This document shows, piece by piece, positions 1-39,160 of a DNA stretch of 39,660 nucleotides. A program made the position numbers and the translations under genes. The DNA is from a virus. The stretch is taken from IMG/VR virus record IMGVR_UViG_3300020470_000057, positions 1-39,660 of that record; one strand, 5' to 3'. The notes below the pieces were generated by a model. That model was given only the letters and a program-made list of their open reading frames with translations, did not search any database and was not told the DNA's origin. Each line of letters begins with the position of its first letter. The first letter of the stretch is position 1.

Positions 1-446
1 CCAACCATTGAAGCATCCATTAAGAATGTAAATGGTTTAGATAAATCTTCTTTTAGATTATCTGTTGATACAAATGCACAATTGTTAAGGGCGGCGTATA
101 AACCTCGTTCTTCTGTGATTGGTGTTCCCATAGCCCATAGACCTCGGCCAGGTGGCAAAAACTTCATATTGAATATTCTGTCGTACATCTCTTGTGCCGA
201 CCTTTGAGCTTGCCACGCATTCCACCCTAAATGATGTGATTCTATCCATTTCTTCTGCATGTTGTAAGTACCTTCAACAACTCGTTGAACGGTTTCCCAC
301 CACATTTCGTTTTTCCCATCATCTTTAATTCTTGAATAAGTTCTCATATAAACAAGTTCACCCAATCCATTAAAACCGAATGGTGCTCGTTTTCTTTTAT
401 ATCCGTCTATAAAATTATCTGATAAACTAAATCTTTTGTATTCCAT
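1..446 (-). CDS. nrdJ: Class II (adenosylcobalamin-dependent) ribonucleoside-triphosphate reductase, N-terminal part (cut by window edge)
   Basis: NrdJ reduces ribonucleoside triphosphates to deoxyribonucleotides for phage DNA synthesis. The frame starts with ATG at 446 and stays open to the window edge, giving 148 complete codons. A PFGFNGLGE stretch lies near residues 22-30, FLPPGRGLWAMGT at 96-108 and NNCAFVST at 121-128. These match the N-terminal region of Lactobacillus leichmannii-type RTPR, and C123 aligns with its redox-active N-terminal cysteine. The start sits 14 bases after the methyltransferase stop, behind a GGAGTGACG ribosome site, so it is probably the next gene of the same operon. 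The radical-site cysteine and C-terminal redox cysteines lie outside the window. The family call is firm; only the completeness of the gene is unknown. Confidence 0.85.
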   Translation of the reverse strand, partial: MEYKRFSLSDNFIDGYKRKRAPFGFNGLGELVYMRTYSRIKDDGKNEMWWETVQRVVEGTYNMQKKWIESHHLGWNAWQAQRSAQEMYDRIFNMKFLPPGRGLWAMGTPITEERGLYAALNNCAFVSTDNLKEDLSKPFTFLMDASMV

Positions 447-460
447 CGTCACTCCTACTC

Positions 461-1528
461 CTATTTTTTAAAAACAAAGATTGGTTCATACTTATGACCT
501 TTACCCGCTATAGAAGACAAGGTTAATTTTAAGGTCTTTTCATATTTAAGTCCCAAATCTTTACATATTTTCATTGTTGCATTTTCTATATTTTTTCCAC
601 TACTCGTGTTGGCTATATTCATTAACATATAACCATTGTCTTTTAATCCACGATAGCAATTATTTATCGTATCATATAAAAACCCACTAATCCACCCATC
701 TTCAGTAGGATACTTCAGATAGCTTTGAGTGGGTTCGTTACTATATTTTTCCGTATCAAAATACGGAGGTGATGTAAAACATAAGTCGATTGAATTTGTT
801 TCAGGTTTAAAAACTTCACTGCCCGCTTTATGTAACTCAATTTCCGTATATAAATATTTAAAATCATTTTTTATCTTCAATAAACCTTCAAAAGTTTTTG
901 AAGAAGGTTCAGTTCCTATGTATTTTTTTATTCTTTTAGATGACAATGCTCCCAACAATCTTCCACCCCATCCAGAAGACATATCCCAAGTTACACCATC
1001 ACCACCATAAGTATCATATATATATTTAGCCGCTGTTGGTCTAAAATTTGATACTGATGATATACCATTATATATCTTTAAAGATTGTCTTATCCTATTC
1101 ATTGACATTCTACCATCTTCGTGTTTCACACACCAATCATAACATTTACTTATTGTCTTTTTAAATTCATCATCATCATTAAAAACATCCATAGGTGACA
1201 TCTTTGAATTTCCACATTGTACTTCCCAAGAATGAGGAAAGTAAGACCACGCTAATCTCAATGAATGCATTGTTTGTTCTATCCTATCATCATCTTTTAA
1301 TATTTCATCAGTATCAAACTTACAAAGTTGTTTCATATGTTTATGTTTTTCATCTTCTGTTATTGTATAATATGGAAATCCATATTTTCTAAAATATTTT
1401 AAAACTACTTCGACACAATAATCTTTTTCGTGTTTACCAACATTATGAGTCACTTCAGAAAAATCTAATTCATTTTGTTCGTAATCAAAAAAGTTTCCTA
1501 ATACTTTATGGTCTACTTGTAATTTCAT
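461..1528 (-). CDS. SPPY-type DNA methyltransferase (N4-cytosine or N6-adenine)
   Basis: Predicted S-adenosylmethionine-dependent methyltransferase acting on an exocyclic amino group of DNA. In the 355-residue product starting at 1528, the SAM-binding motif I region is around residues 182-194 (DMSSGWGGRLLGA) and catalytic motif IV is SPPYFDTEKYS at 253-263. The first 170 residues could hold target recognition, since little follows motif IV. The open frame extends upstream to 1600, but that would overlap the DUF262 gene by about 70 bases. ATG 1528 lies one base past that gene's stop and suits translational coupling, although its ribosome site is weak. The target base is not predictable: SPPY is commoner in N4-cytosine enzymes. 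Possible roles are self-protection of phage DNA or half of a restriction-modification pair. Confidence 0.75.
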   Translation of the reverse strand: MKLQVDHKVLGNFFDYEQNELDFSEVTHNVGKHEKDYCVEVVLKYFRKYGFPYYTITEDEKHKHMKQLCKFDTDEILKDDDRIEQTMHSLRLAWSYFPHSWEVQCGNSKMSPMDVFNDDDEFKKTISKCYDWCVKHEDGRMSMNRIRQSLKIYNGISSVSNFRPTAAKYIYDTYGGDGVTWDMSSGWGGRLLGALSSKRIKKYIGTEPSSKTFEGLLKIKNDFKYLYTEIELHKAGSEVFKPETNSIDLCFTSPPYFDTEKYSNEPTQSYLKYPTEDGWISGFLYDTINNCYRGLKDNGYMLMNIANTSSGKNIENATMKICKDLGLKYEKTLKLTLSSIAGKGHKYEPIFVFKK

Positions 1529-3055: not shown

Positions 3056-3240
3056 TATTCATCCTCCCAGGCTTCGTTTATATTCGGTGTAGATTTATTA
3101 TCACCTCTATATCTACCATCTTTTGTTCTTGCTCTTTTTCTTTTCTTTGGTTTTGGTTTTTCTTCTACTCCAAAAACAAGTTCGTTAAACCATTGAACGA
3201 ACTCTTGAAATCTTTGTAATTCAGTTTTTTCTTTGGCCAT
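3055..3240 (-). CDS. Small basic protein, 61 residues, unknown
   Basis: This short gene is embedded in a run of overlapping genes: its ATG overlaps the helicase stop and its stop overlaps the next ATG, both as TAATG. Residues 1-25 look like an amphipathic helix (LQRFQEFVQWFNELVFGV). A very basic stretch follows (KPKPKKRKRARTK), and the tail is acidic (NEAWEDE). The charge pattern suggests binding to nucleic acid or to a replication protein. Its position next to the helicase would fit an accessory factor, but that is inference. Not recognised. Confidence 0.6.
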   Translation of the reverse strand: MAKEKTELQRFQEFVQWFNELVFGVEEKPKPKKRKRARTKDGRYRGDNKSTPNINEAWEDE

Positions 3241-4598
3241 TATTCGTCTCCCATTAAATCTTCATATTTACTTGATAACATTTTTTTCATTAAGTTATCT
3301 CTGTTATCTATTTTTGTTTGTGTTTCTTTACCATCAACAGTATTCGCTTCATATATTTCTACCTGACCTGTATTTGTATTTACTTTTGCTGGATAAGTTA
3401 ACCCATCAGGTCCGAATCTATTCTTAATAACATGAAATCTACCTGTGTTTCCAATCTTATCTTCCACTTTTCTACTCAATGATACTACAAAATCTGCAGT
3501 CATCACTTTCTGATATGATTCAGCAACCTTTGTAGCCTCAATCACATCTTCGTCAAGAGCACTTCTATTAGCTTGTGAAGCTGTCCATATCGGAACATCA
3601 AACTCACCGGCAAGTCCTCTCATATCTTCATAAATATTTCCAAGTGCGTGTCTTACTTCTCTACTATTACTTGTATCTCTTAATATGTCACCATAATCTA
3701 CAACCACCATATCAAAATCTTTACCCATAGTTCTCAACTTCTGTAAGTGAGCTCCCAATGTATGAACTGATGCAGTTTTTGTTGGAAAATACTTTACAAC
3801 TAACTCACCTTCAACTTTTTCAACTGCCGCTTTTACATCGTCTATATGATACTTTAAATTCTGGTTAGCTAAACCTGTTAATACAGAATCATATCTTAAA
3901 CCAACATATGATTCATTTAACTCTAATGTATAGTGAACCACATTAGTTCCCCTTTTCATCGCACCAGCTCCAAGTGCACATAATATCCAAGTCTTACCTA
4001 TACCAGCAGGTGCAACAATTACACCAAGTTCCCCACCAGCCAAACCACCTTGTGTCAAATCATTTAATACATCCCAAGGCGTTTCAACAGTATCTCTGGC
4101 CATTTCAGAATACCTCACATCTATGTCTTCTGCATATTCGTGACCTAAATCTCTTTCAGTACCCGCTTTCATAGCTTCATCCATAAGATTTTTTATAGCT
4201 TCATAATCACCATTAGACTCTAATATATCAACTGATTTTATAATTGCATTTTTTAATGTTTGATTTTTAAAGAAGTCAATACATTTATCCTGTACAAAAT
4301 CTAAATCAGGTGCTTCCATATATCTATAAACTTCTTTTAATGATTCTACCACAGTAGTTTTTAATACATCATTTGTTACTTCATTTACTTTTACTTTAAA
4401 TACATCAAGTGTAATTGGTTTTTTATATTCGTTAAAATATTTTTTACATTCCTTTACAATCCATTTCAATGAATCATTGTCATAATGACTTTCATCAAGT
4501 ATATCAATAATTTGTTCAATGAAATTAGGTTTTGTCATTAAACAAACTACTGACTTTATCTGAAAGTTATGACCAAACTCTTGTAATCTATCTGTCAC
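3240..4598 (-). CDS. gp41: DnaB-like replicative DNA helicase (T4 gp41 type)
   Basis: Hexameric 5'-3' helicase that unwinds DNA at the replication fork. The Walker A motif APAGIGKT is at residues 196-203, and a Walker B-like MVVVDYGDIL lies near 285-295. A SQANRSA sequence follows, typical of DnaB/RecA-fold helicases, with a late-motif region at FHVIKNRFGPDGL. The N-terminal 150 residues are helical, as in the DnaB family. The start codon is GTG at 4598, supported by AGGGGG six bases upstream; it overlaps the FEN-type nuclease gene by 11 bases. At 452 residues it is close to T4 gp41 (475). It lies downstream of UvsX and the nuclease, forming a replication/recombination operon. No primase gene is visible in the window. 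Confidence 0.88.
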   Translation of the reverse strand: MTDRLQEFGHNFQIKSVVCLMTKPNFIEQIIDILDESHYDNDSLKWIVKECKKYFNEYKKPITLDVFKVKVNEVTNDVLKTTVVESLKEVYRYMEAPDLDFVQDKCIDFFKNQTLKNAIIKSVDILESNGDYEAIKNLMDEAMKAGTERDLGHEYAEDIDVRYSEMARDTVETPWDVLNDLTQGGLAGGELGVIVAPAGIGKTWILCALGAGAMKRGTNVVHYTLELNESYVGLRYDSVLTGLANQNLKYHIDDVKAAVEKVEGELVVKYFPTKTASVHTLGAHLQKLRTMGKDFDMVVVDYGDILRDTSNSREVRHALGNIYEDMRGLAGEFDVPIWTASQANRSALDEDVIEATKVAESYQKVMTADFVVSLSRKVEDKIGNTGRFHVIKNRFGPDGLTYPAKVNTNTGQVEIYEANTVDGKETQTKIDNRDNLMKKMLSSKYEDLMGDE

Positions 4599-5655
4599 TT
4601 AACCCCCTAAATCTATCTAATCTTACAAACTCCATAACCCAGTTATCTAAATTAGGAATTGCAGATGTTAATTTATCCTTTAAAAACATTGTTTGAAATT
4701 TATACTTAATCAATTGTGGAACTTTACTATTAACTGCTCCTTGTATTTTCATCTTTGTATGATTTGGTATATCCACATTCTGTAGTTGCATAAGTAAATA
4801 ATTTCTTTTCAACAAGTTACTGCCTTTTTTTATATTTTCCAAGACTTTTATTTTAGAATCTGTATTATTTACAAAATCTAATAAATCTTTTGCCGTAAAA
4901 TCTTTATCTTCTGTTATTTGTGGTACATATTTTATTATAGTCTTTAAACCAGCACCTTGAATACCATTTATATTATCTGACTTATCACCGTCTAATATTC
5001 TATATGTTAATATGTTTCTTGATGGGATTCCAAACTCTTCCAAAACTTCTCTTTTGGTATATAACTTTTTCTTTGTAGGACTCCACACTTTCACTCTATC
5101 ATCTACGAGTTGAAGAAAATCTTTATCTGTTGACATTATAAATATATCACTATCTTTAAGTACTTGTTGTGATATGTAAGCCATTGTGTCGTCTGCCTCA
5201 ATCCCATCTACACAAACTAATGTTAGAGGTAATTGTTCCAAGTATTCAATCAACCTACCCATTTGTTGTTTCATAGATTGTTGTTCATCTTGAGGAGCTG
5301 TACCCCAATCGACATTACGATTTAATCTTTGTTTAACTTTACGAGTTCCTTTGTATCCTGGATATATTTTCTGTCTTCTACCACTTCCGTTCTTACCATC
5401 GAAGACAACAATTACTCGTGATGGTTTTATAATATCTGAAGTATATCTTAATGACTTTAGAAATCCCATCATACCACCAATGTGTAATCCGTCTTCATTG
5501 ATTGCAGGATTAACTGCAAACGACCTGATAAATGTATTCAGGCCGTCTACAATCAATACTCTGTCGTTCAGATGTGTAACTGATTTTCGTTCTTCATCTT
5601 TAACTTGGTCTAAAAAAGATATAAATTTTTCATTCAAACCTTTATTAGAGTTCAT
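4588..5655 (-). CDS. rnh: 5'-3' exonuclease / flap endonuclease (T4 RNase H type)
   Basis: Metal-dependent structure-specific nuclease that removes RNA primers and 5' flaps. The acidic residues of the FEN/Pol I 5'-nuclease family are visible in order: VLIVDGLNTF near residue 33, VVFDGKNGSGRR near 83, GIEADDTMAYIS near 155, STDKDFLQLVDD near 175 and GDKSDNINGIQGAG in the helix-hairpin-helix region near 225. Its 355 residues exceed T4 RNase H (305). ATG 5655 is preceded by GAGG and overlaps the end of uvsX by 11 bases, so translation of the two is probably coupled. The family is clear; whether it also has endonuclease activity cannot be read here. Confidence 0.88.
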   Translation of the reverse strand: MNSNKGLNEKFISFLDQVKDEERKSVTHLNDRVLIVDGLNTFIRSFAVNPAINEDGLHIGGMMGFLKSLRYTSDIIKPSRVIVVFDGKNGSGRRQKIYPGYKGTRKVKQRLNRNVDWGTAPQDEQQSMKQQMGRLIEYLEQLPLTLVCVDGIEADDTMAYISQQVLKDSDIFIMSTDKDFLQLVDDRVKVWSPTKKKLYTKREVLEEFGIPSRNILTYRILDGDKSDNINGIQGAGLKTIIKYVPQITEDKDFTAKDLLDFVNNTDSKIKVLENIKKGSNLLKRNYLLMQLQNVDIPNHTKMKIQGAVNSKVPQLIKYKFQTMFLKDKLTSAIPNLDNWVMEFVRLDRFRGLSDR

Positions 5656-6766
5656 CCACTACCTCATCAGTTTCATTTACATCATCAATACCTAACTCTT
5701 TAGAATCATATTTTAGAATACAAGCTTCACAGATTTGATTATAACAAAAATCTTTTAAGTCAGAATTTTCTGTTATTAATTTTTCAAAATCTTTTGATTG
5801 AAATTTGTGGTCTTTAATTAATTCACCAGTTTTAGTATCAACTTGTGATATTGTATACCAAGCACCTGATTGTTTAAGTAACTTATGTTCTTTCATTACT
5901 AACAACCAACTACCATAGTCATCTATACCTTTATCAAAATATAATGGAAACTCTGCAGTTCTCATTGGAGGACCTAAACGATTCTTAATCACTTGTCCTT
6001 TTATCTTGATACCGATGGTATTCTTTTTACTACTATCTTTGATTTGTCCCGCATTTTTGAATCTAACACGAGTTGATGAATGAAATGGAAGAGCCTTACC
6101 ACCACTTGTAGTCCAGGGGTCTCCAAACATTACACCAAGTTTTTGTCTTAACTGATTTGTGAAAACCAATGCAACTTTTTGACGAGCAATCATTTGAGTA
6201 ATCTTTCTCATCGCTTTACTTATAATAATTGCTTTTGCAGTTGCCCAACCATCTTTGTCAAAATCAGCATCCATTTCTACTTTCGTAGAAGCGGCCGCTA
6301 ATGAGTCAACCAAGATTGTTACTAACTTATCATTATCAGATTCTCTAATCTTCGTAACAATTGTTTCAATAGTATCAAATATCTCTTCAACAGTTTCAAG
6401 ATGTACATATAACATTTTAGATGTATCTACACCAATAGCTCTCAAGAACTCTTGAGATACTGCAGATTCTGTATCAATATAAACTGCTACACCATCTTTC
6501 TTTTGTGTTGAAGCTAACAAATGAGAACCTATCAAAGACTTACCACTTCCTTCTAAACCATTTAGTTCAGTAATCTTACCTACGGCAACACCACCATTTG
6601 GTCTATTAGAAATAGCAATATCTAACATCGTTGAACCTGTTGAAATAAAGTCAGTAACATCAGTTGGGTTTACATCTTCTTCAAGAAAGTATGCAACTTG
6701 TTGATGTTTAAATTGTTTATTCAGTTCATCAGCTATTACATTAGCTAAGTCGTCTTTTTTAGACAT
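5645..6766 (-). CDS. uvsX: UvsX, RecA-like strand-exchange recombinase
   Basis: ATP-dependent recombinase that forms filaments on single-stranded DNA and drives recombination-dependent replication. The Walker A motif GLEGSGKS is at residues 70-77, the Walker B region VTILVDSLAAAS is near 148-159, and FTNQLRQKLGVMFGDPWTTS (about 202-221) matches the L2 region of UvsX/RecA. The C-terminus is acidic. A strong AAGGAG ribosome site lies 6 bases before ATG 6766. At 373 residues it is close to T4 UvsX (391). It follows gp32, its natural partner on single-stranded DNA, across a 96-base gap that holds a nested hairpin. Confidence 0.93.
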   Translation of the reverse strand: MSKKDDLANVIADELNKQFKHQQVAYFLEEDVNPTDVTDFISTGSTMLDIAISNRPNGGVAVGKITELNGLEGSGKSLIGSHLLASTQKKDGVAVYIDTESAVSQEFLRAIGVDTSKMLYVHLETVEEIFDTIETIVTKIRESDNDKLVTILVDSLAAASTKVEMDADFDKDGWATAKAIIISKAMRKITQMIARQKVALVFTNQLRQKLGVMFGDPWTTSGGKALPFHSSTRVRFKNAGQIKDSSKKNTIGIKIKGQVIKNRLGPPMRTAEFPLYFDKGIDDYGSWLLVMKEHKLLKQSGAWYTISQVDTKTGELIKDHKFQSKDFEKLITENSDLKDFCYNQICEACILKYDSKELGIDDVNETDEVVDEL

Positions 6767-6862: not shown

Positions 6863-7657
6863 TTAACTATTGAACAACTCATCAAATGCATCTTCTACCT
6901 TTTCAGTCGTCTTTTCAGTAGACGCTGGAGTAGTTGTTGTATTTGATGTTGGAGTTGTTGAAGCTGCTACACCATTAGATGTTGTAGTTGTTTCAGTACT
7001 ATCATCACTTGGGTTCAGATAGGTCTGAAGAGCTTCTTTCAAATCATCATAAGATGGTTCTGTATAAAGTTCCTCAAGTTTTGATTGACTATCGAAAATC
7101 TTTTCAAGAGTTTCTTTATTTTCAGTAATCGCAGTTTGATTAGGTTTAACTCTTATAGTAGTTTTACCATATTGATTACCAGCTTCAGCAGGTGTTTGTC
7201 TTTCAACAACAATATCCCTACCTGTAGTTGGGTCTGTAATATCACCATAATCAGGGTCAGCAATAACACCTAACAATTCTTGATATACAGTCTTTCCAAA
7301 TCCCCACCATTTAACACCTTCGTGTTCTTCTCCGCGAACAATTACAGGTGCAAAAGTTCTCATTTTAGGTTCAAGTCTTTTACCTTGAATCCATTCGTCT
7401 TTTACTCCAGTAGATTTTAGTTTATTCGCAAACTCTTCAACAGGGTCTGGTCTTCCGAAGGAAGCAGGTGAAAGATAAGTTTTATTATTACCAAGTTGGT
7501 AATGGAAGAATAACTCAACAAAAGGATTATCCTTATTGAATTTGTAAGGTACTATTCTTATTTGAGTTTTACCTGGTGCAGGTTTCCAAAAACTATCTTT
7601 AGTTGACGAAGTCGCCTGTAGTGTTGATAGACGACTCTTTATTTTATTAATATCCAT
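6863..7657 (-). CDS. gp32: Single-stranded DNA-binding protein, gp32 type
   Basis: Cooperative ssDNA-binding protein of the replication fork and of UvsX loading. The N-terminal KIKSRLSTLQ recalls the basic LAST-type cooperativity motif. The core carries IRIVPYKFNKDNPFVELFFHY and KWWGFGKTVYQELL, which fit the T4 gp32 OB-fold. The C-terminus is a Thr/Ser-rich linker (about residues 217-250) ending in an acidic, aromatic tip, VEDAFDELFN, as expected for partner binding. There is no cysteine in the protein, so the T4 zinc site is absent. ATG 7657 follows AGGAGAATATCA. A sigma70-like promoter lies about 80 bases upstream. Confidence 0.85.
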   Translation of the reverse strand: MDINKIKSRLSTLQATSSTKDSFWKPAPGKTQIRIVPYKFNKDNPFVELFFHYQLGNNKTYLSPASFGRPDPVEEFANKLKSTGVKDEWIQGKRLEPKMRTFAPVIVRGEEHEGVKWWGFGKTVYQELLGVIADPDYGDITDPTTGRDIVVERQTPAEAGNQYGKTTIRVKPNQTAITENKETLEKIFDSQSKLEELYTEPSYDDLKEALQTYLNPSDDSTETTTTSNGVAASTTPTSNTTTTPASTEKTTEKVEDAFDELFNS

Positions 7658-8291: not shown

Positions 8292-9251
8292 CTAAAAGCT
8301 TTCTATGGTTTTCTTATTTGATTTACTTTTTTGTTCAGATTTTTTTTGTTTTTCTATAGATTGTTTTTTAACTTTTTCAATCTGTGACTGAACTTTCTCA
8401 TCAACTTCTTTTGTTTTTGGATGTTGTTGAGGTCTTGGTGGTTTGTGTACTGGAGGTACAGGTGATTTTTTACTAAATGATTTAGACCATTCATTATCAC
8501 CAATAACTTTAGTCATTTTACCATCTTGAGGACCTGAATCCTCTAAAACATAGTATTGAGCTACTAATTTCTGAACATAATCAGCATTAGCGAAAACTGC
8601 TACTCTCTCATTATCTTCAATAATGTAGTAATATGTTGTATTTTTATTTGAACCTCTCACATTTCCATTAGCATCTACACCAGTTCTCGGATTGTTACCT
8701 GGTGATGGATTAGGATTAGCTTGTTGATTTTTCTGTGCAGCCTGTCCAGCTTTAATCCTCTCAACCGCTTGGTCAAATGTCAAAACATTTGGTAAATGTT
8801 TATTATTCGCAGCCCATTCCTCATAACCTTTTTTAAATTCAGCTAATTCTTTTTCATCAGCATTTGCGATGTCCATTGGTGGACGAGGAGGCATTCCTTT
8901 AGGTTGAGGTGGTTTTGGAATTTCCTCACCTTTAGCCCATTTTTCAAGAACATCTTTTTCTCTGAATCCACATACTTGATTACCAGTTTCAGCATCAATG
9001 AATAATGGTGTTCCACATTGAACTTCATATTTTTGTTTTAATTCATTAGCTCGTTTACCTTCATCAGGATTCATCACATCTAATGTTGTAATGTCATAAC
9101 CATCGTCTTTTAATTGACTAACAATTGGGTCAGCTTTTTTACACCAACCACAAGAATTACTCATTATATAAACAAGGTCATGTTTTTGTGCAGTTTTTTT
9201 AGTTTTACCTGCGGGTTTTGTTTTCGTAGATGATTTTGTTGCCATAACCAT
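8292..9251 (-). CDS. Thioredoxin/glutaredoxin-fold protein with long low-complexity tail
   Basis: The N-terminal domain (about residues 24-110) has a thioredoxin-fold active site C34-G-W-C37 and a cis-proline region GTPLFID at 80-86. It could reduce disulfides and serve ribonucleotide reductase, a known role for phage thioredoxins and glutaredoxins. Residues 110-300 are unusual: a Pro-rich stretch, an Asn/Gln-rich linker, a small region with TTYYYIIEDNERVAVF and a Lys/Gln-rich tail. A typical phage glutaredoxin is about 90 residues, so this is a fusion or extended form. The frame starts ATGGTTATG; AGGAG lies 4 bases before the first and 10 before the second ATG, so either 9251 or 9245 may be used. 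A candidate promoter is just upstream. Confidence 0.65.
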   Translation of the reverse strand: MVMATKSSTKTKPAGKTKKTAQKHDLVYIMSNSCGWCKKADPIVSQLKDDGYDITTLDVMNPDEGKRANELKQKYEVQCGTPLFIDAETGNQVCGFREKDVLEKWAKGEEIPKPPQPKGMPPRPPMDIANADEKELAEFKKGYEEWAANNKHLPNVLTFDQAVERIKAGQAAQKNQQANPNPSPGNNPRTGVDANGNVRGSNKNTTYYYIIEDNERVAVFANADYVQKLVAQYYVLEDSGPQDGKMTKVIGDNEWSKSFSKKSPVPPVHKPPRPQQHPKTKEVDEKVQSQIEKVKKQSIEKQKKSEQKSKSNKKTIESF

Positions 9252-9336: not shown

Positions 9337-9738
9337 TTATTCACTTATTTTTTTGATTTTATATATTCTGGTAGGTATTTTACTTAATCCCTCTGCATTT
9401 GTAACCAATATCATATTCCTAAAATTTTCCCAAGGCACTGTAAAATCTTTATCCAATACCCCATTATTTAAATTCTTTATACATTCATTTAATGCATTAA
9501 TAGTATATAATGTATTTGTATGTTTTTTTCTATGTAGTGAAATAGTTCCTTTTACATCATTAAAATCAACAGTCTTATTTGAATCTATATTATAAGTACA
9601 TATCAATTCGTCTATGTTATCTTCGTTCTGTAATACATATATTTTATCAAAAACTATTTCGTATGTCGATGATATGATTTTTACTATATCATCTAAATCT
9701 TTTTTTGTTGTAAATGTTGCTAATAATTGAGTTTTCAT
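9337..9738 (-). CDS. Conserved-looking phage protein, 133 residues, unknown
   Basis: The chosen start is ATG 9738, which overlaps the TAA of the upstream gene (TAATG) and has GGAGATTGGAAATA before it; an in-frame ATG at 9768 lies inside that gene and is less likely. The product begins MKTQLLATFTTKKDLDDIVK and alternates short beta-like and helical segments, suggesting one compact alpha/beta domain. It has no Cys cluster, signal peptide or membrane segment. It is translationally linked to the nuclease-like gene upstream and may serve it. I do not recognise the family; it does not resemble T4 RegA. Confidence 0.6.
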   Translation of the reverse strand: MKTQLLATFTTKKDLDDIVKIISSTYEIVFDKIYVLQNEDNIDELICTYNIDSNKTVDFNDVKGTISLHRKKHTNTLYTINALNECIKNLNNGVLDKDFTVPWENFRNMILVTNAEGLSKIPTRIYKIKKISE

Positions 9739-11102
9739 TATTTCCAATCTCCAAAGATAGATGACCAATCTTTTGCATGTAATTTATAATTAGATTTTGA
9801 ACCTATACCATCCATCTGTCCATTAGTGTATCTTGTAGTTACTTTTATAACGGCTATTGTCTCACCAGTAACTGAACTAGCAACTGTCAGGTTAAATATA
9901 TACCCAGAGCCAGTATTTTCTAAATCATAATCCAATGCGATATCATTAACTAAAGATTCAAATCTTTCTTCACTTGGAATAAACCAAAATGTTTTACCTG
10001 CATTTGCAGCATAGAACATATCTTTCTTACCTATACTTAATTGTCTTTGAAATAAAGTTATTAAACCTTGTTCAATATCATCTTCATTCTCTTTAAAAGC
10101 TGCACCAAATATATTATCAAATCTTTTCGTTCTTTTCTTACCCCACGCTGCCCAAGTCCTTGAAATTTTCAATTCTTGAAATTTTCTACAAAAATATCTA
10201 AATTTTAAATCTTTTGGTTTACCCATATCAACAGCTTCATATATTATTTCCGCATCTTTTTTAACCAATTTTAACTTTTGATATTTATCCCAATCATTAG
10301 CTTTACCTTGAAGTTTGGTAAATAAATCAATAGCTTTTTTTCTTTGTTTAGTATCTAAATTTTTATTTGAGTTGGTATGTTTTTTAAATTCTTTTAATAT
10401 TAAAGTATTCCAATCTGTAGTCATTCCATCAAATTCACTTTTATATGTTTTCTTGATATAATCCATATTAAAAGTCTTTAAATTTAATGCTTTTCCAAGT
10501 GTAGTAACAGTTAGATTCTTAAGTTGTCCTTGTTGATATTTTAAAGAAACACCTACATCGTCATACTTAGCAAAATTGGCTACTATATCAGCCGCCCCAT
10601 AGTCTGATGAATCGTTTGTTGGACCTGCCCACCACACAGCACCTTTAACATTACCTAAATTCTTTTTGATTTTTTTAGCTAATGCTATAGCATCTTTTTT
10701 CAATGTATCAAATTTAGCATGAGTAGAATTATCCATATACTTTTCCCACTCACCAGTTTTATACCAATCTCCAGGAACTCCAGCTTTAACTTTAGTTCCC
10801 ATATATTTTTTCATATCAACACCATTATTGACTTGACTCATATCAACACCAGAACAAGCTAATGCCGTTAATACTTCGTGATAAAATGTGGTTGGATTTT
10901 GTCCTTTATGAACAGTTAATTTTTGTTCTTCTTCTTCATTTAATAAATTACTCATTAAACCATCTATAAACTCATTAGGAAATCTTTTTTCAATTAAAAG
11001 ATTTTTAAGTTCTACTAAATGTGAAGGATTATTGTGGTTGGGTGAACCATCGTTTACTCGCCAAGACCATTCTTTGACTATATCTTTTGGTAAAAATTTC
11101 AT
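9738..11102 (-). CDS. PD-(D/E)XK nuclease-like protein (restriction-endonuclease fold)
   Basis: Of 454 residues, the segment from about 70 to 200 reads like a PD-(D/E)XK core. A helix with FYHEVLTAL (E76) comes first. WWAGPTNDSSDYGAADIV follows with D172, then a strand with VGVSLKYQQGQLKN in which S186-L187-K188 takes the place of the (D/E)XK half-motif, as in HpaII-like enzymes. The C-terminal 250 residues are charged and could recognise DNA; KTFWFIPSEE and the following strands form a second domain. The gene sits between a polymerase-like gene (4 bases upstream) and a small gene that overlaps its stop. A DNA-cutting role in host DNA breakdown, replication or defence is inference. The substitution in the catalytic motif leaves activity open. 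Confidence 0.5.
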   Translation of the reverse strand: MKFLPKDIVKEWSWRVNDGSPNHNNPSHLVELKNLLIEKRFPNEFIDGLMSNLLNEEEEQKLTVHKGQNPTTFYHEVLTALACSGVDMSQVNNGVDMKKYMGTKVKAGVPGDWYKTGEWEKYMDNSTHAKFDTLKKDAIALAKKIKKNLGNVKGAVWWAGPTNDSSDYGAADIVANFAKYDDVGVSLKYQQGQLKNLTVTTLGKALNLKTFNMDYIKKTYKSEFDGMTTDWNTLILKEFKKHTNSNKNLDTKQRKKAIDLFTKLQGKANDWDKYQKLKLVKKDAEIIYEAVDMGKPKDLKFRYFCRKFQELKISRTWAAWGKKRTKRFDNIFGAAFKENEDDIEQGLITLFQRQLSIGKKDMFYAANAGKTFWFIPSEERFESLVNDIALDYDLENTGSGYIFNLTVASSVTGETIAVIKVTTRYTNGQMDGIGSKSNYKLHAKDWSSIFGDWK

Positions 11103-11106
11103 ATCT

Positions 11107-12369
11107 TTATAACCTTTTTGTAATGTTGTCTAATTTACTATAAGTATAACCCATTTTAATTTTTGTTAAATAATTACCTTCTTCTAAAATAGTTTTTACT
11201 TCACTCAATGTATTTACTCCATCGTTTTTACTGAAATCAAACAGAAAACTATCGTAACCATACAAAATTAAATTAGTTTGTTTATCTTCTAAATATTCTT
11301 TTAACTTTAATATTTTTGTAATATTTTTTTCAGTTTCCAAAGATTGTATTAAATAATTAAATAATTTATTTTTATTCATACTATCATTATTGGATTTTGT
11401 TATTTTCCTATTATAAATATCAGTTAATATATAATTACGGTCATTAAATTCACTCCATTTTAAATTAATAAAATCTTGTACTTTATCAAAAAATGGAACT
11501 TTTTTTCTAATTTCTTCTGTTATACCACCATAAAGTAGTTTAAATGATATTTGTTTAGATTCTTCATATGTTGAACCATAAAAATCTGCAAGATGTTGAT
11601 GTACTGATTCATCGTCAAATTTATAGTCAACCAACTCACCGATAAGTCTTAAATGATAAGCATCAAAATCATATTCTACAAGAGTATCATTTTGAGGTAT
11701 AAAAACACTCCTTTTTTCAGGTGGTAGTGCTGCAAAGTTAACACTTCCAAATGAATTACTTGGACGACCAGTCGATGTCCATAGATTATATTGTGAATAT
11801 AATTTCCCATTAGATATATGTTTTCTTACTCTTTCATCAAATACATCACATACATCATCTGTAATTTTTATTCCGTGTTTTTCTATTGAAGAAAAAGCTT
11901 CTATTACATCACTATGATATTTACTATCATTTACTTGACTAAATGATTTTATCATCTCATCAAAAACTTTATCACAATACTCTTTATGTTTAGTAAATGG
12001 TATGATTTCATTAAGTTTTTTTGCATTATAATACTTACTATGGAAAAAATCATATGCATTTACTCTGATATTTTCTAAATCCAAAGGTATATTTTTGTCC
12101 CACCAATGTAAATAATTGACATCAATTAATCTCGTATTTGGAAATATATGTTTTATTTTTTTAACATCAGGTGTAATATAAAAATTATTGTGGTCATCTA
12201 CAATCTCATCAATCGATTCTTTGTCTCCACAATCAGGATGATTTATACATATCATTCTACCTTCAGAATCTCCCACATGCCTTACATATAGTAGGGATAA
12301 ATCATTATCTTTATGTAACGGATGTAAAAATGCATCCGAAAATATTGGAATTAAAATTTTCATAACCAT
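11107..12369 (-). CDS. Short family A DNA polymerase-like protein
   Basis: The 420 residues contain the polymerase motifs of the Pol I family in order. LWTSTGRPSNS is at 196-206. Motif A is YDFDAYHLRLIGEL at 233-246 with D234. Motif B is SKQISFKLLYGG at 271-282, with K272 and YG retained. A NYLIQSLETE stretch at 338-347 resembles the family's N-x2-IQG-x-A-x-D segment. Motif C is GYDSFLFDF at 371-379, where catalytic D373 remains but the usual His before it is Tyr and the Glu after it is Ser. The N-terminal 190 residues show no clear 3'-5' exonuclease motifs. T4 relatives replicate with a family B enzyme, so a repair or accessory role is likely. ATG codons at 12369 and 12363 are both possible; the promoter position favours 12363. 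Confidence 0.65.
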   Translation of the reverse strand: MVMKILIPIFSDAFLHPLHKDNDLSLLYVRHVGDSEGRMICINHPDCGDKESIDEIVDDHNNFYITPDVKKIKHIFPNTRLIDVNYLHWWDKNIPLDLENIRVNAYDFFHSKYYNAKKLNEIIPFTKHKEYCDKVFDEMIKSFSQVNDSKYHSDVIEAFSSIEKHGIKITDDVCDVFDERVRKHISNGKLYSQYNLWTSTGRPSNSFGSVNFAALPPEKRSVFIPQNDTLVEYDFDAYHLRLIGELVDYKFDDESVHQHLADFYGSTYEESKQISFKLLYGGITEEIRKKVPFFDKVQDFINLKWSEFNDRNYILTDIYNRKITKSNNDSMNKNKLFNYLIQSLETEKNITKILKLKEYLEDKQTNLILYGYDSFLFDFSKNDGVNTLSEVKTILEEGNYLTKIKMGYTYSKLDNITKRL

Positions 12370-28410: not shown

Positions 28411-29298
28411 CTAATCCTTAACTTCTGGTGTTCTTTTTTGTACATAAGGTGAATTTGATTCAAGATTTTCACTAAATGTAACTCTTCCAGCAGTTAAAGT
28501 TTTTTTAGCATTAAATTGTTGTTTTTTAACAAGGTTTGTAATTACTTCTGGAATTAGATATCCATTCAGTTGAACTGAAAAAGTTGTTCTTACAATTCTA
28601 TCAGTGCCCGCTGAAAGAGAACTTGCGTCTTGTAGTCCTCCTTGTATAGCACATAAAAATCTATAAGAAGTACTATCTCCCCAGTAAGTTTTATTTTGAT
28701 GTAAAAATTCTTCTGTAACAGTATTCATTTGTTCCATAAATGAAGTCCATATTACAAAATCATAGGTAAGATTGACATATTCAGGTGGACCTGTTACTAT
28801 GGATTCCATAACAGGTTTAACTCCTTGCTCAACAGAAAATCTTGTATATTGATTATCTTTAGACCACTTTGAAGACCTCATATGAGTTATATATTCTTTA
28901 TTTAAATCTTGTTTCCAAGAAGGTAGAAGGTCATTAAATTCTAAAGAAGTTCTTCTAAACATAATCATAGGTAATACTAAACTACCATTTTTATCTCTCA
29001 TCACTCCATTCTTTCTAACATTAGCCCATCTTTCCATATTAGCATATACTAAAGGAACTTTAATCATTTCACCATTTTCTTTTACTCTTAATTTCATAAC
29101 TTTATTGATATGATTGACAAGAGATGTATCTAAATCTTTTAATGCTATAGAAAAATTATCACTAAAATTATTACCTGGTACAAATGACTTTTCCCTATTA
29201 CCAACATCATTTCTAATAGTGTCTCCTTTATTAGATACTTGTTCTGCTCTATTAAAATCTAATGGTGGAAATGGATTAGTTATTGGTTTAACAGCCAT
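28411..29298 (-). CDS. gp15: gp15-like tail completion / sheath terminator protein
   Basis: T4 gp15 caps the tail and joins it to the neck. Parallels in order over 295 residues: MIKVPLVYANMERWANVRKN (T4: RVPITYAS), then LPMIMFRRTSLEFND, then YVNLTYDFVIWTSFMEQMNT with EEFL (T4: MIYELSIFTRYEDDMFQIVE), then TTFSVQLNGYLIPE (T4: LTFEVNGWMYPP). The gene also sits in the expected place, after gp13 and gp14 and before gp18. The first 50 residues differ from T4. Its ATG overlaps the stop of the adjacent Cys-rich gene by one base. The call rests on remembered similarity to T4 gp15, so I rate it probable rather than sure. Confidence 0.7.
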   Translation of the reverse strand: MAVKPITNPFPPLDFNRAEQVSNKGDTIRNDVGNREKSFVPGNNFSDNFSIALKDLDTSLVNHINKVMKLRVKENGEMIKVPLVYANMERWANVRKNGVMRDKNGSLVLPMIMFRRTSLEFNDLLPSWKQDLNKEYITHMRSSKWSKDNQYTRFSVEQGVKPVMESIVTGPPEYVNLTYDFVIWTSFMEQMNTVTEEFLHQNKTYWGDSTSYRFLCAIQGGLQDASSLSAGTDRIVRTTFSVQLNGYLIPEVITNLVKKQQFNAKKTLTAGRVTFSENLESNSPYVQKRTPEVKD

Positions 29299-29627
29299 TA
29301 TCTAGTTCTCCCCCTACTGTTATCCGTCAGAGAACAACATCTCTGTACTAAATTCTGGCCAGGATTGTTAAAACCATCTGTATTATATGGATACCTCATA
29401 CCACATGGAACTGTTCCTGGAGGACAAGGTGCTAAAATTTGGTCACCACCTACTGTACCAGGAACTCTCCTCATAGTACCTAATCCAGGCCTTGTACCCA
29501 ATGACCTTGTTGTTCTTCCACCTATAACATGTATATTTTGTCTAGTATTGGTTACAATATTTTTTTTTCTATTGAATTTACTGAGGTCTTTAGCATTTGT
29601 AAAAAATTGTCTTTTACCTTTAGCCAT
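29298..29627 (-). CDS. Cys-rich paralogue 3 (FTNAKDLSKF family)
   Basis: This 109-residue basic protein shares its N-terminus with two genes upstream: QFFTNAKDLSKFNRKKNIVT, then a conserved GGRTTRS. Its C-terminal half has CPPGTVPCGM and a closing CC, again like the paralogues. It is the most divergent copy. The ATG lies inside the end of the 117-residue gene (8-base overlap), and its stop overlaps the gp15 ATG. The layout suggests a small virion protein made in step with neck genes. Function unknown. Confidence 0.65.
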   Translation of the reverse strand: MAKGKRQFFTNAKDLSKFNRKKNIVTNTRQNIHVIGGRTTRSLGTRPGLGTMRRVPGTVGGDQILAPCPPGTVPCGMRYPYNTDGFNNPGQNLVQRCCSLTDNSRGRTR

Positions 29628-29975: not shown

Positions 29976-30386
29976 TTATCTCCTATCCCTACCTTGTCCA
30001 CCACCACCACCGGTAGTTAGAGGCTGACACACACAATGTTGATAAGTATTCATTCCTAAATAAACCTCACCATCTGATTGGTGACCATACATCATCACAG
30101 CTTGGTGTGTAGGAGGACATTCAGTAACCATACCTCCATTAAATCGACATCCTTGCATTCTTTCAGTTCGAGTACCAAGTTGATTCATTATAAATTCAGG
30201 ACTCGCATGTTGAGCAGCTCTACCCCCACCAGGGTCGTGTTGATTCATTGGATTATTAGGATTATTAGGAATAGTTCTTCTACCGTGAACTGCATTAGAT
30301 ACATTTTTAGTATTTGTTACTCTTCTCGGTCTTCGAGTAAACTTATTTATATCTCTAGCATTGGTTATATATTGTTTTTTCGCCAT
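29976..30386 (-). CDS. Cys-rich paralogue 2 (YITNARDINKF family)
   Basis: 136 residues beginning MAKKQYITNARDINKFTRRP and continuing RRVTNTKNVSNAVHGRRTIP, nearly the same N-terminus as the next gene upstream. The middle is Asn/Pro-rich (NNPNNPMNQ). The C-terminus has MQGCRFNGGMVTECPP and QHCVCQPL, ending in a Gly run and Arg/Asp residues. With four cysteines in CPP and CVC settings it may bind metal or form disulfides in the virion. The N-terminal half is rich in Arg and could bind DNA or a partner. The three copies suggest tandem duplication; a neck, collar or decoration function is only a guess. Confidence 0.65.
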   Translation of the reverse strand: MAKKQYITNARDINKFTRRPRRVTNTKNVSNAVHGRRTIPNNPNNPMNQHDPGGGRAAQHASPEFIMNQLGTRTERMQGCRFNGGMVTECPPTHQAVMMYGHQSDGEVYLGMNTYQHCVCQPLTTGGGGGQGRDRR

Positions 30387-30396
30387 TTTATTACCC

Positions 30397-30759
30397 CTAC
30401 CTACTTCGACCTCTTTGTGACTGAGTACGAGTTACACAAACACATCGCCTCTGTCCAACAGAACCCATCCCACCACCTGCAGGTTGTTCGGAATATGAAA
30501 TTGTAGCCATATATCCAGGAGGACATCCTACGCCATACCAACCATCAGGTCCTTCACACATTTGAATCCTTATATTATCATCACCAGTGCCCGTATTCTG
30601 ACCTCTCATACTTTCTTGTCTGATGGAACGAACTCCAGTTGGATTAGTTCTTCTACCATGAACTGCATTCTGAACATCTTTAGTATTCGTTACTATCCTT
30701 TTCCTTCCTCGAAATTTGTTAATATCTCGAGCATTTGTAAAGTATTGTTTTTTTGACAT
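30397..30759 (-). CDS. Cys-rich paralogue 1 (YFTNARDINKF family)
   Basis: 120 residues beginning MSKKQYFTNARDINKFRGRK and continuing RIVTNTKDVQNAVHGRRTNP, the closest relative of paralogue 2. The C-terminal half has CEGPDGWYGVGCPPGYMATI and RRCVCVTR, so the CPPG and CVC positions are shared. It ends in an Arg/Ser-rich tail (SQRGRSR). A TAGGAGAATATAA site precedes ATG 30759. It is the first copy downstream of the gp14-like gene. Not recognised as a named family. Confidence 0.65.
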   Translation of the reverse strand: MSKKQYFTNARDINKFRGRKRIVTNTKDVQNAVHGRRTNPTGVRSIRQESMRGQNTGTGDDNIRIQMCEGPDGWYGVGCPPGYMATISYSEQPAGGGMGSVGQRRCVCVTRTQSQRGRSR

Positions 30760-37731: not shown

Positions 37732-38151
37732 TTATATAAATTTATTAAAAGAACTGATAGGTTTAAACTGATTTGTATCATTTTTAAAATTATCAATTTC
37801 TTTATCGGTCATTTTAACTACATCGTCATACACAATTTCGGTATCACGATAAGCTTCTCCATGTGGAGTTATTGCATCTTTAATTTTCTTTTCATATTCT
37901 TCTATAGCTTTATACAATAAATCCATTTTTGGTGTTATTTTTTTGTTGTGTGTAGTTATTTCTTCTCTCCAATCTAATTGGTATTGTAATAACTTTTTCA
38001 AATCTCCAAATTCAGGATGAAAAGGACCTGAAAATAACATATCAATTCCTTGACCCTTTGCACCAGAGTGTCCTTCAACACCACCAGAATCTTGTTCCAA
38101 TAAATTTACTAATTCTTCTAGTAAATTACTCTTCACTTGACTCTTCTTCAT
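37732..38151 (-). CDS. Small protein overlapping the actin-like gene, 139 residues
   Basis: ATG 38151 lies 26 bases inside the end of the actin-like gene and is preceded by GAGG, so the two are translationally coupled. The N-terminus is amphipathic (SNLLEELVNLLEQ) followed by a Gly-rich stretch (SGGVEGHSGAKGQG). The rest has helices (KKLLQYQLDWREEITTHNKK, YKAIEEYEKKIKDA) and an acidic middle. Gene overlap with an actin-like ATPase resembles plasmid and phage segregation pairs, where the second gene is a DNA-binding adaptor. No DNA-binding fold is recognisable, so adaptor is only one idea. It could also belong to the head. Confidence 0.6.
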   Translation of the reverse strand: MKKSQVKSNLLEELVNLLEQDSGGVEGHSGAKGQGIDMLFSGPFHPEFGDLKKLLQYQLDWREEITTHNKKITPKMDLLYKAIEEYEKKIKDAITPHGEAYRDTEIVYDDVVKMTDKEIDNFKNDTNQFKPISSFNKFI

Positions 38152-39160
38152 CTTCCTCTATGAGTTGTGCTTCACTTAAACAACCTCTTGCGACTGCTGT
38201 GTGAGCATCTTCAATTAATTTTATTTCACTAACTGGTATTGGGAAATTTTCTCCATCAAATTGTTCTTGGAATACATCCATAAATCCTGTAACTAATGAT
38301 GTTCCACCACCAATTACAATTGGAACTGCATCTGGAAAACTCGGCATATTATCTTTAGCTTCAAATTGAACTTTGAGGTTTGTTAAAAGATAATTAACCA
38401 ATGCACCATAGTAAGAACGAATAGCATGTAATACATTTGCCTCGTCACTACCTTCACCATAAATATCAGCTTCAACACCCTTACTTAAATTTAAGTTGTT
38501 TGAAGATTCTTTTGCATTTTGAACTTTAGCCGGTGACAATCCAGTATCAGCAGCTACATTTTGGTCAATCCAATCACCACCTCTTGATACTGAAAATGAT
38601 AATGCAGTCATACCTTGATACATTACTGCTATATTACACATACCAGCTCCCATAGAAATTGCTATACCAGTTAAGTCATTATCAACTAAACCTTCATATC
38701 CAATAGCAACTGCCTCTTCAATTACTTTAGTTTTATATCCATATCCATCTATAATAGTTTTTAACACATCTTCGTGATAAGAAACTTCTCTTTGTTGGTC
38801 AATAGGTTTTGAAGGTACACAATAAACACACACCTCTTTACCTTTAGCCTTACCTAACAATTCACCAACAATTGCATTTAATACAGGTAGTGCATCTTTT
38901 TCTTCTGGATTTAATAATCCACTTTTCATTGGTCTTTTTAATTCTGTTTGAGAAAATATCTGTGCGTAATTAAAAGCGTGTTGTCCAACGATATGAACTT
39001 TTCCACCCTTTTCCACGAATGGTATCTTCTGTCTTTTTAACATTCGTTTAACTTGATTTACATCACCATCTACTGTTAAGAAAGCATTTCTTTGTTTTTT
39101 AATACTATCTTCTGTAGCTGTGATATAAAAACTTGTTCCACAATCTAATCCTTTTGCCAT
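38126..39160 (-). CDS. Actin-like ATPase (ASKHA fold; MreB/ParM/Alp type)
   Basis: A filament-forming or chaperone-like ATPase is predicted. The ASKHA motifs are in order: phosphate-1 GLDCGTSFYITA (residues 4-15), connect-1 region VIEEAVAIGYEG (146-157), phosphate-2 IAISMGAGMCNIAVMYQG (166-183), the MreB/Hsp70-like RGGDWIDQNVA (193-203), adenosine motif IVIGGGTSLVTGF (281-293) and the closing AHTAVARGC (319-327). At 344 residues it is the size of MreB or ParM, not of Hsp70. The last 12 residues are strongly acidic. The start at 39160 is behind AGAGGTAAATT. Its neighbours are candidate internal head proteins, and T4 has no such gene. Polymerisation cannot be judged from sequence. Confidence 0.8.
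   Translation of the reverse strand: MAKGLDCGTSFYITATEDSIKKQRNAFLTVDGDVNQVKRMLKRQKIPFVEKGGKVHIVGQHAFNYAQIFSQTELKRPMKSGLLNPEEKDALPVLNAIVGELLGKAKGKEVCVYCVPSKPIDQQREVSYHEDVLKTIIDGYGYKTKVIEEAVAIGYEGLVDNDLTGIAISMGAGMCNIAVMYQGMTALSFSVSRGGDWIDQNVAADTGLSPAKVQNAKESSNNLNLSKGVEADIYGEGSDEANVLHAIRSYYGALVNYLLTNLKVQFEAKDNMPSFPDAVPIVIGGGTSLVTGFMDVFQEQFDGENFPIPVSEIKLIEDAHTAVARGCLSEAQLIEEDEEESSEE

Follow-up and report, generated by a model that had tools for sequence, protein, structure and literature searches.

The window analyzed here, a virus record of 39,660 bases that is evidently a fragment, carries on its minus strand (12369..11107) a 420-codon open reading frame that spans the whole of positions 11107-12369 and whose product we call mini-PolA. 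The initial annotation had reported this ORF without its strand; the ORF is real, and the strand is minus. Tail sheath, tail tube and major head proteins were recognized in the window by PHROGs matches, and the genome appears from its sequence to be that of a T4-like myovirus, which its relatives would place among the "Far-T4" phages (PMC4360716). In the gene block to which mini-PolA belongs the order is fixed: mini-PolA, a small ORF, gp32, UvsX/RecA, a 5'-3' exonuclease and a DnaB helicase (Table 1). Elsewhere in the window lie a gene for an actin-like protein (38126-39160, minus strand; Pfam Volactin PF25216, E 1.8e-73, and MreB weakly) and, between head and tail genes, three adjacent minus-strand paralogues (29298-29627, 29976-30386 and 30397-30759; 37-45% identity) that have in common the N-terminus KKQYxTNARDINKF...VTNT and a conserved Cys.

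Table 1. Features of the mini-PolA locus, in window coordinates unless a contig is named; residues are numbered as in mini-PolA and equated with those of Klenow.
Feature	Position	Strand	Remarks
mini-PolA / divPolA1 gene, 420 aa	11107..12369	(-)	stop codon 11107-11109
Vestigial 3'-5' exonuclease (RNase H-like) domain, N-terminal ~118 residues (predicted)	12016..12369	(-)	VIA alignment; boundary approximate
H16, K70, D83	12322-12324, 12160-12162, 12121-12123	(-)	near-invariance in homologues
TxTGRPSN motif, R202 = Klenow R668	11752..11778	(-)	R202 217/217
Motif A, VEYDFDAYHLRL: D234 = D705, D236 = S707, H239 = E710 steric gate	11644..11685	(-)
Motif B / O helix, YEESKQISFKLLYG: Y268 = R754, K272 = K758, F276 = F762, Y280-G281 = Y766-G767	11527..11568	(-)
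Motif C hairpin, LILYGYDSFLFDFS region: Y372-D373-S374 for H881-D882-E883	11233..11274	(-)
Small conserved neighbor, 133 aa from ATG	9337..9738	(-)	listed as 143-aa TTG ORF 9337-9768
Member of the ~130-aa family	L020:1346-1801
gp32-like ssDNA-binding protein	6863..7657	(-)	PF08804 4.9e-15, phrog_1192
UvsX/RecA-like recombinase	5645..6766	(-)	PF00154 4.5e-56, phrog_97
Separate 5'-3' exonuclease, Pol I N-domain / T4 RNase H type	4588..5655	(-)	PF02739 3.9e-33, phrog_107
DnaB/gp41-like replicative helicase	3240..4598	(-)	PF03796 6.3e-16, phrog_19 1.1e-69

The window protein itself has no relevant match in Pfam, PHROGs or NCBIfam and receives no polymerase call from them, and a phmmer search of PDB sequences returned none. 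Relatives are encoded in at least 581 IMG/VR stretches. By tblastn, gp001 of Flavobacterium phage vB_FspM_immuto, annotated as "DNA polymerase family A", matches the protein with 34.7% identity over 91% (E 3e-57), and further matches were found in Microcystis phage Mel-JY01 and in the jumbo record LR756508. When 110 members, immuto-clade sequences included, were brought into one alignment, 41 of them matched PF00476 at E≤0.01 (best 7.1e-13; the window protein itself unmatched), and gp001 of immuto did so at 4.6e-11. The family B domain of the T4 gp43 replicase (PF00136) has no match in the window protein, and its matches in the relatives are separate ORFs. The family A polymerases of the divergent group divPolA1, whose type phage is immuto, were described and named by Yutin et al. 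in 2024; the text of that paper lists 14 phages, immuto among them (PMC11348598). The window protein belongs to divPolA1 by homology, and its kind is thus already on record. In the published text the family is described as keeping the palm residues, having a truncated thumb and an exonuclease that is no longer active, and accompanying a second, regular polymerase; its reading of the activity and of the exonuclease loss is the same as ours (PMC11348598). While the family had thus already been published, the uniform active-site signature and the linked small gene are the new part here: residues H239, D236 and Y268 and the linked 133-aa neighbor go unmentioned in the text of the paper, and the same text makes no mention of a steric gate or of ribonucleotides.

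Conservation was counted on 218 distinct homologues (209-218 sequences per catalytic position); the residue register relative to Taq comes from a profile alignment of weak score in which the motifs are in order. All the motifs named in the initial annotation were recovered: T200-G-R202, D234 in motif A, K272 through Y280-G281 in motif B and Y372-D373-S374 in motif C. D234 is present in 218/218 and D373 in 209/209 homologues; the case that the annotation had set against itself, homologues lacking one or the other Asp, was looked for and encountered in none of these 209-218 sequences. Equally invariant are K272 and F276 (217/217 each), Y280 and G281 (216/216 each) and Q342 (216/216), which with N338 (215/216) makes up an Asn/Gln pair. 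With D234, D373, K272 and R202 all at 100%, and with a Klenow fold predicted for the protein, the description "family A polymerase-like" is well founded. The departures from Pol I are just as uniform. Ser707 is replaced by Asp (D236) and the steric-gate Glu710 by His (H239) in 218/218 homologues, Arg754 by Tyr (Y268) in 217/217 and His881 by Tyr (Y372) in 209/209; at position 374, which corresponds to Glu883, 131 of 209 sequences have Ala and 78 have Ser. E710 and R754, which are canonical Pol I traits, are absent from all homologues: the family has diverged within family A and does not conform to canonical Pol I. In Pol I, R754 and E710 help to bind and screen the incoming dNTP; as both are replaced in every homologue, the activity of mini-PolA could be weak or changed. 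The conversion of the HDE triad to YDS, to which the annotation drew attention, is real, but the loss of the acid is less telling than was implied. Tt72 polymerase, an active enzyme, naturally has Ser where Pol I has E883, so that the absence of Glu883 alone is no argument for inactivity; loss of either catalytic Asp, on the other hand, leaves this enzyme with about 4% activity (PMC9324360).

An AlphaFold2 model computed on the 110-member alignment (pLDDT 94.9, pTM 0.93) has as its best PDB match in Foldseek the Klenow fragment 1kfd (E 7.9e-18), and the top structural matches are DNA polymerases. VIA-align superimposed it on Taq and Bst with Z about 27, aligning 350-392 of the 420 residues from residue 1 onward, so that model residues 1..415 align with residues 302..832 of Taq and 313..876 of Bst. 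All three methods give a Klenow fold, and the structural comparison proposed in the annotation thus bears it out over nearly the whole length. In the model, as in Pol I, a palm strand (229-235) ends with D234, and a hairpin (366-371/374-379) has D373 in its turn. Mini-PolA is predicted to be a compact but complete Klenow fragment, made of an exonuclease remnant, a short thumb, and palm and fingers; since the whole fold is there in the model, the exonuclease domain would be present but vestigial. In this part of the family alignment, with the register set by eye, no conserved DxE or acidic pair was found on strand 1, and most members have Leu, Met or Ile in place of the exo II Asp. The statement that no 3'-5' exonuclease was visible therefore needs correction: the domain fold is present, but its catalytic carboxylates are gone, in agreement with the proposal of a non-proofreading enzyme. 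The near-invariance in the homologue alignment of H16 (203/203), K70 (206/207) and D83 (206/208) suggests that the dead exonuclease domain has been retained for another purpose. Pairs within the family give dN/dS values of 0.05-0.28, which indicate purifying selection. It is not a chance ORF, given the at least 581 IMG/VR relatives, the invariant catalytic residues, these dN/dS values and the match of the AlphaFold2 model to Klenow, Taq and Bst.

Of 98 mini-PolA loci with more than 7 kb of downstream sequence, 97 have gp32 after mini-PolA, 93 the 5'-3' exonuclease and 89 DnaB; UvsX was scored in 67, the immuto-clade RecA being missed by the window's UvsX at the threshold used. A conserved order of downstream replication genes is a divPolA1 trait, and it is present in the window. 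Such a neighborhood suggests co-expression, not a shared pathway. A thioredoxin-like neighbor (8292-9251) was considered as a T7-style processivity factor and dismissed, as it occurs in only 17/98 loci. Directly downstream of mini-PolA in the window is a 454-aa ORF (9738-11102, minus strand), also found in 17/98 loci, that has no family match and contains a stretch resembling, by eye only, the cores of restriction-enzyme-type nucleases. In loci of the Mel-JY01 type, a gene for an S-adenosylmethionine lyase-like protein (L024:21988-23274; PF23780, 4.4e-10) lies between mini-PolA and gp32; such a gene is found in 33/98 mini-PolA loci, possibly with an anti-restriction function.

The small ORF between mini-PolA and gp32 encodes a protein of about 130 residues with no known family in Pfam, PHROGs or NCBIfam. 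By hhalign, the versions from the window, from immuto (gp002) and from Mel-JY01 (L024:21257-21646) prove homologous (100%, E 1e-50 and 1e-40), and H69, K71, N75, Y78, N81, N84, G93 and W103 are invariant in the family. The gene follows mini-PolA in 199 of the 200 loci with enough room, and mini-PolA is present at all 34 loci of the small gene with enough room upstream; in a set of 50,697 phage records, both genes were found in the same six and, at the sensitivity used, in no others. An apparent exception to this linkage (L343) arose only because the sequence compared ended there; the gene lies at G027:87754-88959. Although the neighbor is modeled with a pLDDT of 91.9, its matches to PDB folds are all weak (best Foldseek E 0.23, Z <7) and we therefore propose no function for it. 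It is a candidate partner of mini-PolA; a physical partnership is put forward as hypothetical, because the linkage owes something to the common descent of the block.

Mini-PolA is not the replicase. Of 24 related contigs of at least 60 kb, 15 encode a full-size family B polymerase and seven a family A polymerase, making 22 with a separate enzyme; no family A, B or C replicase was found in the other two (G009 and G015), contigs that may be incomplete. The family A cases are the immuto clade, whose PolA is of about 780 aa and, in immuto itself, carries an exonuclease domain. Three contigs in which mini-PolA is 53-58% identical to that of the window (G001, G005 and G010) have the family B enzyme. 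That a T4-like phage should encode mini-PolA as an accessory enzyme, as the annotation surmised, agrees with the presence of a separate gp43-like polymerase in these close relatives of what is, in the window, a 39.7-kb fragment. In the mini-PolA tree, the immuto clade, with its PolA replicase, falls inside the PolB-bearing group (support 0.85), so that mini-PolA was inherited vertically and the replicase exchanged around it. In G023, G026 and LR756508, two or more ORFs share the family B replicase between them (e.g. 610 + 306 aa).

The invariant catalytic set and the dN/dS range of 0.05-0.28 make it most likely that mini-PolA is an active, non-proofreading polymerase, the first of the two options offered by the annotation. 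The second, a remodeled protein that no longer polymerizes and might serve as a scaffold or DNA-binding subunit, could appeal to the loss of the R754 and E710 residues and of those of the exonuclease. Pseudo-enzymes, however, normally lose their catalytic residues, and here D234 (218/218), D373 (209/209), R202, K272, F276, Y280 and Q342 are all invariant in a protein under purifying selection; we consider an inactive scaffold very unlikely. Our preferred reading, which we hold to be reasonably probable, is that of an exonuclease-dead second polymerase that works beside the replicase in short synthesis during recombination-dependent replication and repair. Encoded in one block with gp32, the UvsX/RecA recombinase, the 5'-3' exonuclease and the DnaB-type helicase, mini-PolA would perform short, low-processivity synthesis, extending invaded 3' ends and filling the gaps that arise from recombination or from removal of RNA primers. 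The 5'-3' exonuclease, encoded separately, would then supply the other half of such a "split Pol I", the one for nick translation. The replaced R754 and E710 residues and the short thumb count against this reading. That mini-PolA polymerizes, on which substrate and in what link with this exonuclease, and what its exact job may be (gap filling, D-loop extension or translesion), we infer.

The main rival reading is that of an error-prone translesion polymerase, akin to Pol theta or Pol nu, which would carry synthesis past lesions at which the gp43-type replicase stalls. The missing exonuclease carboxylates, the altered dNTP-binding residues kept in all members and the full-size replicase alongside would all suit such an enzyme. 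However, 420 residues leave scant room for inserts of the theta/nu type, no lesion-specific feature was seen, and occurrence throughout the gene block rather than in patches fits a core role better; we regard translesion synthesis as unlikely. One could also imagine a relaxed choice of sugar, with mini-PolA making or extending RNA in the manner of a primase, an RNA polymerase or a terminal transferase, since the steric-gate Glu is His (218/218) and motif C lacks its Glu (Ala or Ser after the motif C Asp in 209/209). For the other group, divPolA2, the possibility of an RNA polymerase is brought up by Yutin et al. in the text of their paper (PMC11348598). Yet His, being bulky, might continue to serve as the gate, F276 (F762) is retained, and the top structural matches are DNA polymerases. 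A primase or RNA-making role is further weakened by the existence of separate DnaG-type primases, in 6 of 13 long records tested and in immuto as well, and seems to us quite improbable. A bolder view, tentative and in our opinion rather doubtful, is that divPolA1 and its small neighbor together constitute a polymerase of two proteins, its nucleotide pocket rewired and its choice of sugar or primer altered, which serves Far-T4-type phages as a core polymerase of recombination and stays fixed while the replicase is swapped. The His steric gate, the Tyr in place of the triphosphate-binding Arg and the second Asp in motif A would make up this pocket, which might allow, for example, RNA primers or recombination intermediates to be extended with mixed nucleotides.

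Replication of the T4 type is the textbook case of a single family B polymerase responsible for all phage-encoded synthesis. A large aquatic branch of T4-like phages appears instead to retain, within the recombination block, an additional family A enzyme that lacks proofreading, even where the replicase has changed family. If mini-PolA is active as proposed, replication and recombination synthesis would be split between two phage polymerases, as they are in cells, and a small, naturally exonuclease-free polymerase with an unusual nucleotide pocket would be at hand. With its uniform signature and the small gene linked to it, the family offers specific residues and a putative partner for experiment.

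Mini-PolA has the whole fold and the motif order in common with Klenow, Taq and Bst, and the exonuclease domains of Taq and Bst are also dead. It is, however, smaller (420 versus ~540-600 residues), only 14-18% identical to them, and altered in all members at the E710, R754, S707, H881 and E883 positions. Rhodothermus phage RM378, considered as a possible split family A case, is no precedent: its separate polymerase and exonuclease genes are of family B. The RM378 genome yielded no match to PF00476 or divPolA1, and single-sequence hhalign comparisons with its family B polymerase and with the full PolA of immuto, insensitive without alignments, gave nothing. RM378 is itself a Far-T4 phage (PMC4360716). 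The Tt72 DNA polymerase of a Thermus phage is likewise a phage family A enzyme and, like the window protein, has Ser at the E883 position, with which it is active; it differs in that it has strong proofreading and keeps the steric-gate Glu (PMC9324360). As described in the text of PMC11348598, divPolA2 of the barbaviruses resembles divPolA1 in being a second, exonuclease-less family A polymerase beside PolB, and differs from it by an unrelated N-terminal domain and a variable gene neighborhood. The closest likeness is to divPolA1 itself as that text describes it from immuto: exonuclease residues lost, a truncated thumb, a regular second DNA polymerase (for the window, in its relatives) and replication genes downstream. 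To the 14 phages of that account, the present analysis adds hundreds of loci, with the window member among marine relatives of the PolB type.
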